Positions 60,040 to 64,000 of a stretch of DNA of 64,000 nucleotides are shown in pieces (position 1 is the first letter of the stretch; every line of letters begins with the position of its first letter). The stretch is from the NCBI RefSeq assembly GCF_027111315.2, contig NZ_CP114289.2, forward strand, positions 2,046,001 to 2,110,000, written 5' to 3'. Below the pieces are notes generated by a model. That model worked only from the letters and a program-made list of their open reading frames with translations. It did no database searches and was not told where the DNA came from. The stretch is from Flavobacterium limnophilum. Its GTDB lineage: Bacteria > Bacteroidota > Bacteroidia > Flavobacteriales > Flavobacteriaceae. Made by a program: the position numbers and the translations under genes.

Positions 60040-60642
60040 ATGGAACGACCAATAGTAGAAAATAAAATTGCCGAAGTGCTGAAATCACACCCAAAAGGAA
60101 GTGTTCTTTTTGTAGATGATTTTTTGGATTATGGTAATCCAGAAAGTGTTAAGAAAGCTCTACTTCGACTAAAGGAAAAGGAAATACTTGTTCGCTTGGC
60201 TCACGGTATTTACTTATACCCCAAAATCGACAAAGAACTTGGAGTTCTCTTCCCATCAACCGAAGACATAGCCAAAGCAATTGCAAGACGAGACAGAGCA
60301 AGAATTGTCCCAACAGGAGTTCAAGCGTTGAATAAATTGGGATTATCAACCCAAGTTCCTATGAAAGTGGTTTATCTGACGGATGGAGCAGCAAGAAGCA
60401 TTAAAGTTGGAAAACGAACAATTACTTTTAAAAATACAAGCCCAAAAAATTTAATGGCACAAGGCGAAATAAGCAGTTTAGTAATTCAAGCACTAAAAAC
60501 TATTGGTCAATTAAAAGTAGATGATGAAACACTTTTAAAAATTCAAACACTTCTCCAAAAGGAAAAAATAGAGAATAGATTGAATGATGCCAAACTTGCA
60601 CCAGCTTGGATAAACAAAATATTAATAAAATCCATTCGATGA
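60040..60642 (+). CDS. AbiEi-like antitoxin / DUF6088 family protein
   Basis: 200 aa. An N-terminal winged helix (VLFVDDFLDYGNPESVKKAL, LKEKEILVRLAHGIYLYPKI) and the central block RIVPTGVQALNKLGLSTQVP with KVVYLTDGAARSIKVGKRTI are typical of DUF6088/AbiEi-type proteins. Its stop overlaps the AbiEii start (ATGA), the usual order for an antitoxin-toxin pair. A type IV toxin-antitoxin system, often involved in phage defence by abortive infection, is the expected role. Confidence 0.88.
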   Translation: MERPIVENKIAEVLKSHPKGSVLFVDDFLDYGNPESVKKALLRLKEKEILVRLAHGIYLYPKIDKELGVLFPSTEDIAKAIARRDRARIVPTGVQALNKLGLSTQVPMKVVYLTDGAARSIKVGKRTITFKNTSPKNLMAQGEISSLVIQALKTIGQLKVDDETLLKIQTLLQKEKIENRLNDAKLAPAWINKILIKSIR

Positions 60643-61643
60643 ATACCAACTGGCTAGCATTATCAAAGGAAAGAAGAATTGAAATTCTAAATCAGGCAAC
60701 AGAACTAACGGGTTTACCTTCGGTAGCTATTGAAAAAGATTGGTGGGTAACATTGGCATTGAACGCTTCATTCTCTTTGCCTTACAGTAAAAATATAGTT
60801 TTCAAAGGTGGCACTTCTTTAAGCAAAGGATGGAATTTGATAGAACGATTTTCTGAAGATATTGACTTGGCTATTGATAGAAAGTTTTTTGGTTTTGAGG
60901 GAGAGATTAGTAAAACTCAAATCAAAAATCTAAGGAAGGAATCTTGTGAATTTATATCAACTACATTTCTTGACGATTTAACTAAAATATTGACCGAGTG
61001 GCAGGCAATTAGCGAATGTAAACTAATTGCTCAACCAGTAAAAGATTCAGACAAAGACCCACAGGTAATTGAAATTCATTATAATTCAGTAATTGACACA
61101 TCGGAATATTTACCCCAAAGGGTTTTGATAGAAGTAAGTTCACGTTCATTAATGGAGCCAATCGAGGAAAGAGAAATCAACTCAATTTTAAGCGATAACT
61201 TTCCTAAACAAAGTTTTGTAACAGTTCCTTTATCAATATCGACCGTGCTTCCACAAAGAACGTTTTTAGAAAAAGTGTTTTTGCTTCACGAAGAGTTTTC
61301 GCAAGAAACAGAAAAAATACGTGTTGACAGACTTTCAAGGCATTTATATGACTTAGAAAAATTGATGGATACCGAACACGGAATTGAGGCGTTGAAAAAC
61401 AAAGAACTATACAACAAGATTGTTACACACAGAGAAAAATTTAATCCATTAAGAGGGCTTGACTATGACAATCATATTCCAAGTAAAATCAGTATAATTC
61501 CGCCAGACAAGGTAATAAAAGACTACGAAAGGGATTATGAAGCAATGACCCGTTTTATGATTTACGGAGATCCGTTAAAATTTGACCAACTAATGAAAAG
61601 AATTTTGGAACTACAATCAAGAATAAATGATATTACTAAGTAA
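60639..61643 (+). CDS. AbiEii-like nucleotidyltransferase toxin
   Basis: The ATG at 60639 overlaps the preceding stop; a start at 60606 would lie inside the antitoxin gene and is not used. 334 aa. The nucleotidyltransferase motif is clear in NIVFKGGTSLSKGWNLIERF followed by SEDIDLAID (GG[ST] and DxD). The remainder (RVLIEVSSRSLMEPIEEREI, LRGLDYDNHIPSKISIIPPD) is helical. It is the toxin partner of the AbiEi-type protein and is expected to modify an RNA or nucleotide target. Confidence 0.9.
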   Translation: MNTNWLALSKERRIEILNQATELTGLPSVAIEKDWWVTLALNASFSLPYSKNIVFKGGTSLSKGWNLIERFSEDIDLAIDRKFFGFEGEISKTQIKNLRKESCEFISTTFLDDLTKILTEWQAISECKLIAQPVKDSDKDPQVIEIHYNSVIDTSEYLPQRVLIEVSSRSLMEPIEEREINSILSDNFPKQSFVTVPLSISTVLPQRTFLEKVFLLHEEFSQETEKIRVDRLSRHLYDLEKLMDTEHGIEALKNKELYNKIVTHREKFNPLRGLDYDNHIPSKISIIPPDKVIKDYERDYEAMTRFMIYGDPLKFDQLMKRILELQSRINDITK

Positions 61644-61706: not shown

Positions 61707-61800
61707 AACAGGAGGCCAGCAGGTAACAGCTAGAGTTCGTTGGGCTCGCAGAGAGCCAACAATGAAACTCCTGTTGAACAGCTTGTCCCGATGCATCGGG
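61707..61800 (+). other. Structured non-coding segment (nested inverted repeats)
   Basis: AACAGGAG (61707-61714) pairs with CTCCTGTT (61768-61775), enclosing GTTGGGCTC/GAGCCAAC (61739-61760). A further perfect palindrome CCCGATGCATCGGG follows (61787-61800). No gene. The TATGGAGTTATCGA sequence is repeated twice downstream (near 61824 and 61880). Confidence 0.6.
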
Positions 61801-62042
61801 AGAACCAGCAATTATCTTATACTATGGAGTTATCGAAAATTTGGAAAAGGAATATGTAAGAGGTGTTTTTATTCCTAATATGGAGTTATCGACAATCTAT
61901 TGATTTTCAACGTAATAAATCAAATTCAAATGCCGTAACTACAATGCAAAAGTACAAACTAAATTGGGTTATGGCAATTATTTAAATTTGTTTTCAAAGG
62001 CTTCTTAGATAATTATATTTTAACACAGCTACCGTAGGTTTA
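61801..62042. other. Gap with no recognised element apart from a duplicated 14-mer
   Basis: TATGGAGTTATCGA(A/C)AAT occurs at about 61824 and 61880, 56 bp apart. No ORF, terminator or promoter is recognised. Confidence 0.35.
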
Positions 62043-62174
62043 GTTCAACAGCCACTACAACGGATTTGGGCATTTGGCTTAATGGAAACATGGTCTTGTA
62101 CTTGGGATATTTGGTAAATCCGAAAATAGGGCTTAATTTAGTCCCAAACCCGCTGTAGTGCCAAGACGTTATGC
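62043..62174 (+). repeat. attC-like element A
   Basis: Starts with GTTCAAC and ends with GTTATGC (62168-62174). Arms CACTACAACGGATTTGGG (62053-62070) and CCCAAACCCGCTGTAGTG (62143-62160) pair at 16 of 18 positions. The interior shares GGCTTAATGGAAA and AGGGCTTAATTTAGTC with elements B and C. Length and imperfect-palindrome architecture resemble integron attC sites, although the core sites do not fully fit the GTTRRRY consensus. Confidence 0.7.
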
Positions 62175-62196
62175 CTCATGCTAAAAAAACTGACAG

Positions 62197-62379
62197 ATGA
62201 GCGAAAGAAAAAATCGTAAACTAAAAAAAGAAATAAAAGCTGAAGACGTTGAATTTGATCGCGATGAAAATTTTGCTTTTATTGTGGGATACACTTCTGG
62301 TGGTGCACCGTATGGCGTGACACACGAAGAGATGAATGGAATTGAAAAAGAAGACCACGAAACTGACGATATAATATAA
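62197..62379 (+). CDS. Small hypothetical protein with a GYTSGGAPYGVT motif (cassette gene)
   Basis: 60 aa. A basic N-terminus (MSERKNRKLKKEIKAEDVEF) is followed by ENFAFIVGYTSGGAPYGVTH, an acidic tail and stop. The central motif resembles small conserved proteins I recall in many bacteria (FIAGYTxGGxPYG(I/V)TWEE), of unknown function. It is the first of two genes between attC-like elements A and B, 10 bp before the next gene, as in a gene cassette. Confidence 0.7.
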   Translation: MSERKNRKLKKEIKAEDVEFDRDENFAFIVGYTSGGAPYGVTHEEMNGIEKEDHETDDII

Positions 62380-62389
62380 AAGAAAACAA

Positions 62390-62770
62390 ATGTCATCTGG
62401 AGAAGCACATACAATTTGGTTTCCTGAATTAAAAAAGTATTTAAAAGAGAATTGGAAAGCTAATTTGACAATTCCAAAACATTTTAAACTTGTGGCTGAA
62501 TTAGATAATAAACTGAAGCAAATTAGAACCGAAAGAAATATTCAACCTCCAATGATGTGGTGTCCAAAATGCCAAAAAAGACATCGCTCAAGGCTTAGGT
62601 CAATTTCTATAACTGCAATGTATTTTGCTTTAAAAAAATTTGATAATTGTACCGAAATTGAGTTTAAAGAATTTATGAAAAATTGGAAATTGTATTCAAA
62701 AGAGAAAAATATTGACATTTACGGAAACGAAGTGCTAAAAACCAATTTAGAAGAAAGCACGAAGGCATAA
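62390..62770 (+). CDS. Hypothetical protein with a single CPKC motif (cassette gene)
   Basis: 126 aa. MWCPKCQKRHRSRLRSIS contains one CxxC pair (a complete zinc ribbon would need a second pair, which is not seen). It also has an AMYFALKKFDNCTEIEFKEF helix. No recognised family. Its TAA stop is part of the border of attC-like element B (GCATAAC at 62765). No function is assigned. Confidence 0.72.
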   Translation: MSSGEAHTIWFPELKKYLKENWKANLTIPKHFKLVAELDNKLKQIRTERNIQPPMMWCPKCQKRHRSRLRSISITAMYFALKKFDNCTEIEFKEFMKNWKLYSKEKNIDIYGNEVLKTNLEESTKA

Positions 62771-62922
62771 CACACGCTACAAGCAATTTGGCGAATTGGC
62801 TTAATGGAAAGTTGGTTTTGTGTTTGGGATGATTTGCTTCGTCTGTTCGCTATTGCTCGGGTGGTAAATTCGAAAATAGGCTTAATTTGATCCAAACTCG
62901 CTGTACAACCAGACTGTTAGCA
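62765..62922 (+). repeat. attC-like element B
   Basis: Begins GCATAAC (62765-62771) and ends GTTAGCA (62916-62922). Inner arms TACAAGCAATTTGG and CCAAACTCGCTGTA pair imperfectly. The interior contains GGCTTAATGGAAAGTTGG, ATGATTTGCTTCGTCTGTTC and AATAGGCTTAATTTGATCC, which are shared with A, C and the fragment in the fic remnant. About 158 bp. Confidence 0.72.
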
Positions 62923-62939
62923 TAAATTTAAATTAACAA

Positions 62940-63716
62940 ATGAAAAAAATCTTATTATTAATTTCACTTGCACTAACAAGTCAAGTTTTTAGTCAAAAAG
63001 TATTGTTTGACACATTAAAGGTAGATTCAAAAACTAAAATAATCGGAAGATATCCTCAATACGATAAAAGTAAAACATACGAAAAATATAATTTTATAAT
63101 CGAAGACTCGGCTTCAATAGTTGATTTTATAAAAACTTTAAAATTGGGCGATGAAGTAAAAAATTCTTTTGAAACTCCAAGTTTTATGTTAACTGTCATT
63201 AAAAATTATGATGAAATAGGTTCTTGGACCATAAATCCAACACTAAAAAGTGCAATGACTCACGATGGTCATACATATCAATTTGATCTTAATCAAATTT
63301 CAAAATTGAATGAAAACAATTACTTCAATTACTTATATGAGCAAAAGAGTTTCAGCAACAGTAGTGAGTATGTAAATTACCTAAAACAACAGAAAAACAA
63401 TCCAAAATTCTTATTTGATTATTCCCCTCATTTTAAGTATGAAGGTAGCTTTGAAATTGGATTTAAAAAATCTGAACGATTCCCACATCCAAAGGCAATT
63501 AGCGAATATCTTAAACCCTATATAGAAAAAATAGTTAACCACGGTGAATACAACCTTGTATATATTTTCGATGAAAAAAATAAAAAAGATAGAGAACAAT
63601 ATACAATGACAATTTCAGGTTCTAAAAAATTGTTTGATAATCTTAAAGTTGAAAAGTTAAAAACCGAGAATTGGCAACCAATAATCGAAGAAGGATATTT
63701 CTTTTATAAAAAATAA
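62940..63716 (+). CDS. Secreted hypothetical protein (cassette gene)
   Basis: 258 aa with a signal peptide (KKILLLISLALTSQVFS). The mature protein contains KVLFDTLKVDSKTKIIGRYP and a C-terminal region rich in Lys and aromatic residues (NWQPIIEEGYFFYKK). No recognised family. It is the only gene between attC-like elements B and C, starting 17 bp after B and ending directly at C, the size and packing of a gene cassette. Confidence 0.75.
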   Translation: MKKILLLISLALTSQVFSQKVLFDTLKVDSKTKIIGRYPQYDKSKTYEKYNFIIEDSASIVDFIKTLKLGDEVKNSFETPSFMLTVIKNYDEIGSWTINPTLKSAMTHDGHTYQFDLNQISKLNENNYFNYLYEQKSFSNSSEYVNYLKQQKNNPKFLFDYSPHFKYEGSFEIGFKKSERFPHPKAISEYLKPYIEKIVNHGEYNLVYIFDEKNKKDREQYTMTISGSKKLFDNLKVEKLKTENWQPIIEEGYFFYKK

Positions 63717-63840
63717 ACTACTGCCAACGGATTTGGGCAATTGGCTTAATGGGAAGTTGGTTTTGTAAATGGAGATCAGTGCAAATCCGAATAATGGGCT
63801 TAATTTAGTCCCAAACCCGTAGTAGTAACAGAATGTTGGC
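63717..63840 (+). repeat. attC-like element C
   Basis: ACTACTGCCAACGGATTTGG at the left and CCCAAACCCGTAGTAGT at the right (63811-63827) pair apart from a short GCCA bulge. The terminal GCCAAC (63723-63728) and GTTGGC (63835-63840) are perfect complements. It shares GGCTTAATGGGAAGTTGG and GGGCTTAATTTAGTCCC with elements A and B. Confidence 0.75.
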
Positions 63841-63886
63841 GGATATTTTGCAAAAAAAACAGAAAAATAAAAACATAGAAAATAAT

Positions 63887-64000
63887 ATGAAAATTAAATT
63901 AACTATCATTCTTGCTATTATTTCAATCCATTTTAGCTTCAGTCAGAAGGTTGAAAATTTAGACTATTGCAATTGTATGGATAAAATCGAAATTAAAGAA
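63887..64000 (+). CDS. Secreted protein, partial (next cassette gene)
   Basis: The frame is open from 63887 to the window edge. It begins with a signal peptide (KIKLTIILAIISIHFSFSQ) followed by KVENLDYCNCMDKIEIKE. It starts 47 bp after attC-like element C, so the cassette series continues beyond the window. Nothing more can be said of its function. Confidence 0.65.
   Translation, partial: MKIKLTIILAIISIHFSFSQKVENLDYCNCMDKIEIKE

Follow-up and report, generated by a model that had tools for sequence, protein, structure and literature searches.

The 64,000-nucleotide window analysed here (C1:2046001-2110000 of the 4.51-Mb genome of Flavobacterium limnophilum) very probably carries an integrase-less cluster of integron-type gene cassettes. 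As far as sequence can tell, the enzyme behind it would be a tyrosine recombinase of a family found at the head of related cassette arrays, hereafter the array family. The original prediction was of an integron-type cassette array, either divergent or integrase-less, and it is supported by the exchange of cassettes at element borders and by the lack of a nearby integrase. The window cluster is partly decayed.

Structure of the cassette cluster

The features of the cluster are as follows.

61722..61779, plus strand: short hairpin site (GGTAAC...GTTGAAC), by reading
61773..62049, plus strand: remnant unit with complementary ends GTTGAAC...GTTCAAC, by reading
62043..62175, plus strand: attC-like element A, with R'' GTTCAAC at 62043-62049 and R' GTTATGCC, the R' core from 62168 (GTTATGCCT); R1 match of 141.3 bits, A itself being a seed of model R1
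62168..62916, plus strand: gene cassette A-B, with complementary ends and homologous copies in G545, G491 and, three times, in G481
62197..62379, plus strand: cassette ORF of 60 aa, without Pfam match
62390..62770, plus strand: cassette gene of 126 aa, without Pfam match
62764..62922, plus strand: attC-like element B, with R'' GGCATAAC, the core ending at 62771 (AGGCATAAC), and R' GTTAGCA at 62916-62922; found by covariance model R1
62940..63716, plus strand: gene of 258 aa between B and C, without Pfam match
63712..63841, plus strand: attC-like element C, with a degenerate left core and R' GTTGGCG at 63835-63841; found by R1
63833..64000, plus strand: start of a 339-aa ORF after C, which crosses the window end
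C1:2110856-2111012: element D, next after C and beyond the window; found by R1

The positions and common orientation of A, B and C agree with the original prediction, and R1 places them at 62043-62174, 62765-62922 and 63712-63841. The small genes were also confirmed: those of 60, 126, 258 and 339 aa all run with the array and the first three have no Pfam match. The stop codon of the 126-aa gene falls within the R'' core of B. Signal peptides in the small genes are plausible by eye, and a signal-peptide-like stretch was likewise seen by eye at an internal Met of the 339-aa ORF. Two or more attC-like sites lie less than 4 kb apart, where sites were called by our own hairpin criterion and R1 and not by a published attC model. 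Left of A, the hairpin of 61722..61779 is one that is seen again where an IS91/recombinase module of the genome's array 1 ends, and the right end of the remnant unit, ACACAGCTACCGTAGGTTTAGTTCAAC, is common to the left flanks of three other elements of this genome (both by reading).

No IntI integrase had been noticed in the window, and the PF00589 profile gave no match there. The nearest PF00589 match lies ~0.16 Mb from the cluster. With the head recombinase of the genome's main array ~1.09 Mb distant, the cluster counts as integrase-less and CALIN-like, a CALIN being an attC cluster with no integrase nearby.

At the gathering score, no Rfam family matched in the window. When E values up to 5 were admitted, the final 2.5 kb of the window gave one weak S15-leader match, which was taken as chance. 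Just left of the cluster, window positions 60040-61643 hold a DUF6088 gene and an AbiEii-type gene, possibly a type IV toxin-antitoxin pair. Synteny on the right flank is uninformative: among 26 same-genus genomes, the kinase encoded there is matched over nearly its full length in one other genome and by a single partial match in another.

Complementary cassette ends

The original reading overlooked that R' of A (GTTATGCCT) and R'' of B (AGGCATAAC) are perfect reverse complements over 9 bp. These are the two ends of one cassette, which begins with the GTT of A and ends with the G of B's GTT, so that element B belongs to cassette A-B. Complementary ends also join other neighbours in this genome (by reading). 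In the window, only A to B retains them; the ends from B to C mismatch, showing that the left end of C has decayed. The A-B link, noticed by reading, is confirmed by its homologues in other genomes. The automated link finder, with its further requirement of strong hairpin arms, gave no links in the window cluster (L018), in the far end of array 1 (L009) or in pairs of L017 and L023.

The same complementarity was counted among elements chosen by hairpin alone, not by linkage, in 33 regions with at least four elements each. Adjacent pairs reached at least 8 bp of complementarity in 94 of 180 cases and all other pairs in 35 of 1589, the latter including each element against itself and the reverse order. 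The commonest complementarity was exactly 10 bp (66 adjacent pairs); one pair had 14 bp and none had 11 to 13. Among 269 linked elements from 40 arrays, own array 1 included, 99% of R' have an A at position 11, where 80% of the R'' complements have a G, and this difference explains why the match usually stops there. The predicted deviation from GTTRRRY is also seen in these elements, position 4 being R in 99% and position 5 a purine in only 44%, with the GTT itself fixed by how the finder was built. The cores consequently depart from the GTTRRRY / RYYYAAC pattern by which integrons are recognised.

Movement of cassettes between contexts

Exchange of genes at element borders had been named as the key check, and it was found: cassette A-B occurs in different contexts in genomes G545, G491 and G481. 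Of 149 other genomes of the genus, three have a homologue of its 126-aa gene (83-84% identical). The homologous stretch in G545 (91.7% over 617 bp) reaches from 3 bp outside the left GTT to 10 bp beyond the right AAC, and the flanks around it differ. In G491 the homology amounts to 90.1% over 675 bp and is followed by a different element-arm variant. In G481 there are three copies whose sequence is the same over at least 719 bp, beginning one base ahead of GTT and stopping at the GTT with which their own element closes; their left neighbours all differ, and so do their right neighbours. They belong to a series of 33 linked cassettes (about 241 to 203 kb) that is headed by a recombinase 48% identical to that of F. 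limnophilum and interrupted near its start by ~7 kb without links. For the 258-aa gene lying between B and C, a second copy (91%) exists at another place in its own genome, with DNA homology over 809 bp, and 3 of 149 other genomes hold homologues. The same cassette is found in different contexts, exchanged at the core, as the definition of an integron asks, and the evident points of cassette exchange are the GTT/AAC cores.

The element family and its folding

Element A has 27 matches in its own genome, itself included (E<=1e-3), and the hairpin sites of the A-D family are mostly about 130 bp long. Model R1 was built from 18 elements of this genome, A, B and C among them. Its consensus structure has 13 pairs, nine of them with at least one double change that keeps the pair. 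R1 has 22 matches in the genome, 16 in clusters of at least two and 6 outside clusters. Dispersed repeats had been named as a refutation of the original prediction only if small genes between them and gene exchange were lacking; single copies do occur elsewhere in the genome, but so do cassettes and their exchange. R1 matches are present in 35 of 41 same-genus genomes, own included, one of them with 82, the number scored. The corresponding figure of 22 of 149 family genomes reflects a model built on one genome, which misses other variants.

An IS110-family transposase adjoins an element at L009:14769-15845. Four elements of this genome, A included, are preceded by the same sequence, perhaps an IS110 end. 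Insertion of IS110-type elements at attC is known elsewhere.

When the stretch between the cores was folded as DNA, the bottom strand was the more stable one in 233 of 269 linked elements, compared with 70 of 258 control stretches within cassettes; the arm score of the finder treats both strands alike. Stem mismatches are A opposite C in 498 of 813 cases, which become G.T wobbles on the bottom strand, and only 50 are of the kinds that wobble on the top strand. The bottom-strand bias is seen across the arrays and in element A (-17.6 kcal/mol for the bottom versus -13.4 for the top strand), but not in C, where the top strand is more stable. Since, in addition, the bottom strand was more stable in only 9 of the 18 elements of this genome, the bias is not shown for the window itself. 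Taken over all arrays, it suggests that the bottom strand may be the strand used.

A recombinase at the head of cassette arrays

The main array of the genome and its recombinase lie outside the window.

C1:991-1017 kb, minus strand: own array 1
C1:1017958-1019010: head recombinase of array 1, a tyrosine recombinase of 350 aa

The stop codon of the recombinase gene is followed by a terminator-like stretch, GTTACCTGCT, the first cassette and the cassette end AGCAGGTAAC. The array head thus comprises the recombinase, a candidate attI-like site and the first cassettes. Homologues of the recombinase (E<=1e-40) were found in 100 of 149 family genomes, own included, and its nearest named relative in a quick tree is that of F. 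enshiense.

Downstream of 79 recombinase loci we found 156 linked cassettes, against one in shuffled sequence. Fifteen of the loci have less than 1.5 kb of downstream sequence, too short to judge. Among the remaining 64, at least one linked cassette lies downstream in 42 and none in 18, the upstream side of these 18 being mostly seen for only ~1 kb. At L071, L072, L073 and L078 the array is on the other side, divergent from the recombinase gene. Link counts on the opposite strand nearly mirror those on the plus strand, because the link test is palindromic, and could not serve as a control. Upstream, this set gave a count of 1, a weak control given flanks of only ~1 kb, and a second set was analysed for this reason.

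The second set comprised the best 80 loci of its scan, of which 39 were chosen by rank (L159-L195, L208, L214) and the other 41 served for comparison. The 39 best-scoring loci gave 47 links downstream, none upstream and none in shuffled sequence; ten have links, and each of these ten has at least as much sequence upstream as downstream. Beside the 41 other recombinase loci of the set (genome_contigs) there was one link in all. Hosts with links include Winogradskyella ursingii, Seonamhaeicola aphaedonensis, Aequorivita sinensis, Aquiflexum sp., Rufibacter sp., Flavobacterium aciduliphilum, F. enshiense and Algibacter onchidii. The 39 loci are mostly titled Bacteroidota; the Undinarchaeales, Woesearchaeota, Firmicutes and Spirochaetota MAG loci also among them gave no links.

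A candidate attI, defined by complementarity only as a stretch that matches the first R'' and precedes the first element, was found in 28 of the 42 loci. In 22 of these 28 it lies 26-151 bp after the recombinase stop. At about ten loci (e.g. L099, L103, L094) a covarying palindrome, ATAAAC-N8-GTTTAT, was seen by eye ~6 nt before the first GTT.

In nine cases (L086, L087, L091, L093, L114, L115, L138, L140 and L141) the contig ends within about 210 bp past the recombinase stop on the array side, so near that the arrays were probably lost in assembly. A subgroup of recombinases of 272-280 aa (L104, L108, L110, L116, L137, L139) is too short for the N-terminal domain described below. No downstream arrays were found in its five testable members, L137 having too little sequence, and L110 has one link upstream.

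On the mobilizable plasmid pls1 of Pontibacter kalidii (L156) the recombinase is followed by small genes, and cassette ends match by eye in five cassettes, one of which spans an IS110 transposase. The automated finder gave no links on this plasmid, so membership there rests on matching by eye. The sites of pls1 appear shorter, about 60-70 bp.

Cassette contents

Of 68 cassettes no longer than 1.3 kb, drawn from five arrays, 63 have their longest ORF in the direction of the array. Array 1 includes the gene pairs PIN/DUF6364, Gp49-like/HTH and DUF3368/UPF0175, which look like toxin-antitoxin pairs. Such pairs occur in known large integrons. At C1:997-1016 kb (L009, L010), six modules of a tyrosine recombinase and an IS91-family transposase lie inside array 1. 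They share one orientation and each ends right before an element arm, as if targeting the site. One copy, read at its other end, sits between a cassette R'' and the arm, like an insertion into the site.

Relationship to canonical IntI

The recombinase of the array family is, by the sequence comparisons made here, not a canonical IntI. The insertion of ~44 residues found in IntI1, a part regarded as essential in classical integron integrases, is absent from all 18 array-family rows of alignment A2. The criteria for an integron quoted in PMC9668308 include an IntI with the IntI-specific additional domain, which these array-family rows lack. Nine array-family recombinases scanned with TIGR02249 scored 184.8-213.4 bits, below the cut-off of 265, compared with 507.5 for IntI1. 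This profile was over its cut-off in none of the 149 family genomes, a search with no positive control within it; that such a search can succeed is shown by the 84 of 296 phylum genomes in which it passed. In seven of the nine, the best NCBIfam match was NF040815 (recomb_XerA_Arch), an Xer-type family whose description also says 'integron integrase'; three of the nine passed its cut-off. The best solved relative by sequence was IntI4 (2a3v), with two matched stretches and the part between them unaligned.

In the quick tree of 118 rows, the array-linked recombinases fall within one group of 100 rows, most of them Bacteroidota (support 81), while another three rows from Bacteroidota are unplaced. 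The three IntI rows, the only ones included, make up a clade of their own, which joins IS91-linked, archaeal, patescibacterial and clostridial recombinases (support 94). Supports in this tree are modest and long branches meet.

Array-family recombinases have an extra N-terminal domain of about 70-100 aa, for which no clear match was obtained in profile or structure searches. Pfam HARP was matched by 2 of 14 members (best E 0.0013) and DUF5710 by 4 of 14 (best E 0.0026). Structure 4o66, titled as a SWI/SNF-related protein and presumably a HARP-domain structure, came sixth in the list at E 1.2. HARP was not among the matches for ten whole recombinases at E up to 5. These matches faintly suggest that the domain is HARP-like.

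Proposed mechanism and alternative explanations

A cassette consists of one or two small genes and the attC-like hairpin site that follows them. The array family, tyrosine recombinases of Bacteroidota whose gene heads the main array here and in many relatives, would join the folded bottom strand of the hairpin, at its GTT core, to an attI-like site adjoining the recombinase's own gene or to other hairpins. Cassettes could in this way be inserted, excised and shuffled. The exchange would be catalysed by the head recombinase, and its N-terminal domain may fill the role that the IntI insertion has in classical integrons.

The sites could be real and be served by another enzyme, host XerC/XerD or an IS91-linked tyrosine recombinase. 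This is improbable in our judgement, even with six IS91-linked recombinases sitting inside array 1 and one aligned IS91-linked recombinase that also lacks the long IntI insertion. Many arrays start beside an array-family recombinase with the first GTT near its stop codon, whereas the IS91-linked modules each precede an element arm and the one fully read resembles an insertion into the site. Moreover, the 41 other recombinase loci of the second set, of which at least two (L196, L204) fall with an IS91-linked recombinase in the tree, have a single link between them. The IS91-linked enzymes also differ from the array family in being coupled to an IS91 transposase (440.3 bits), in having no N-terminal domain and in lying within sites instead of at the array head. 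XerA, XerC and XerD share the catalytic and core-binding domains of the array family, which differs from them in its extra N-terminal domain and in its cassette arrays in place of dif-type sites. Xer recombinases act at dif-type sites. That the elements are dispersed non-coding repeats (MITE or REP-like), with small genes flanked by chance, is scarcely credible. The 27 genome-wide matches of element A, several single or partial, would suit such repeats, which would yield neither cassette-specific complementary ends between neighbours nor identical gene-plus-element units exchanged at the GTT core.

With the cluster taken as integron-type cassettes served by the array-family recombinase, the origin of that enzyme can be read in two ways. 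It may be a derived canonical integron integrase, an IntI relative that lost the insertion; we consider this rather doubtful, and it overlaps with the preferred explanation instead of competing with it. TIGR02249 is among the best-scoring families for these enzymes, though below cut-off, and IntI4 is their best solved relative. In the portion of a survey seen, the insertion is incompletely conserved in an integron-like subgroup (PMC8138268). The quick tree, with its modest supports, sets the three IntI rows apart from the group of 100. The other reading, for and against which we find the balance about even, is a second, Bacteroidota lineage of integrons whose integrase never had the IntI insertion. 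It would use an Xer-like enzyme with a different N-terminal accessory domain, possibly a relative of the branched-DNA-binding HARP domain, on bottom-strand hairpins, and would be either older than the IntI insertion, as its forerunner, or an independent invention of the same mechanism.

Compared with classical sedentary chromosomal integrons and CALINs, the system is alike in its small-gene cassettes with a hairpin site, exchange at GTT, a bottom-strand folding bias over the arrays as a whole, a recombinase beside the array and a candidate attI-like site. Toxin-antitoxin-like cassettes and IS110-type transposons among the sites are known from classical integrons, and their likes are found here too. 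The differences are the recombinase without the IntI insertion and with an extra N-terminal domain of ~70-100 aa, the 9-10 bp complementarity of cassette ends, the break of GTTRRRY at position 5, and an array mostly downstream of, and co-directional with, the recombinase gene.

Implications

The cassette system is widespread in Flavobacteriaceae. Among the matches listed in a search of open-licence PMC articles without preprints, the portions seen held no description of such a system in this family, and an earlier description elsewhere is possible. A survey requiring IntI or published attC models names, in the part consulted, one complete integron in Bacteroidetes proper, that of Salinibacter ruber M1 (PMC9024848). 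If our reading is true, a large pool of cassettes in a major phylum, one member of it on a mobilizable plasmid, has been missed by tools that need IntI or published attC models. It would furthermore bear on a paradox set out in a passage of PMC4792948, namely how the IntI-specific domain and attC sites could arise together, since here hairpin cassettes appear to move without that domain.
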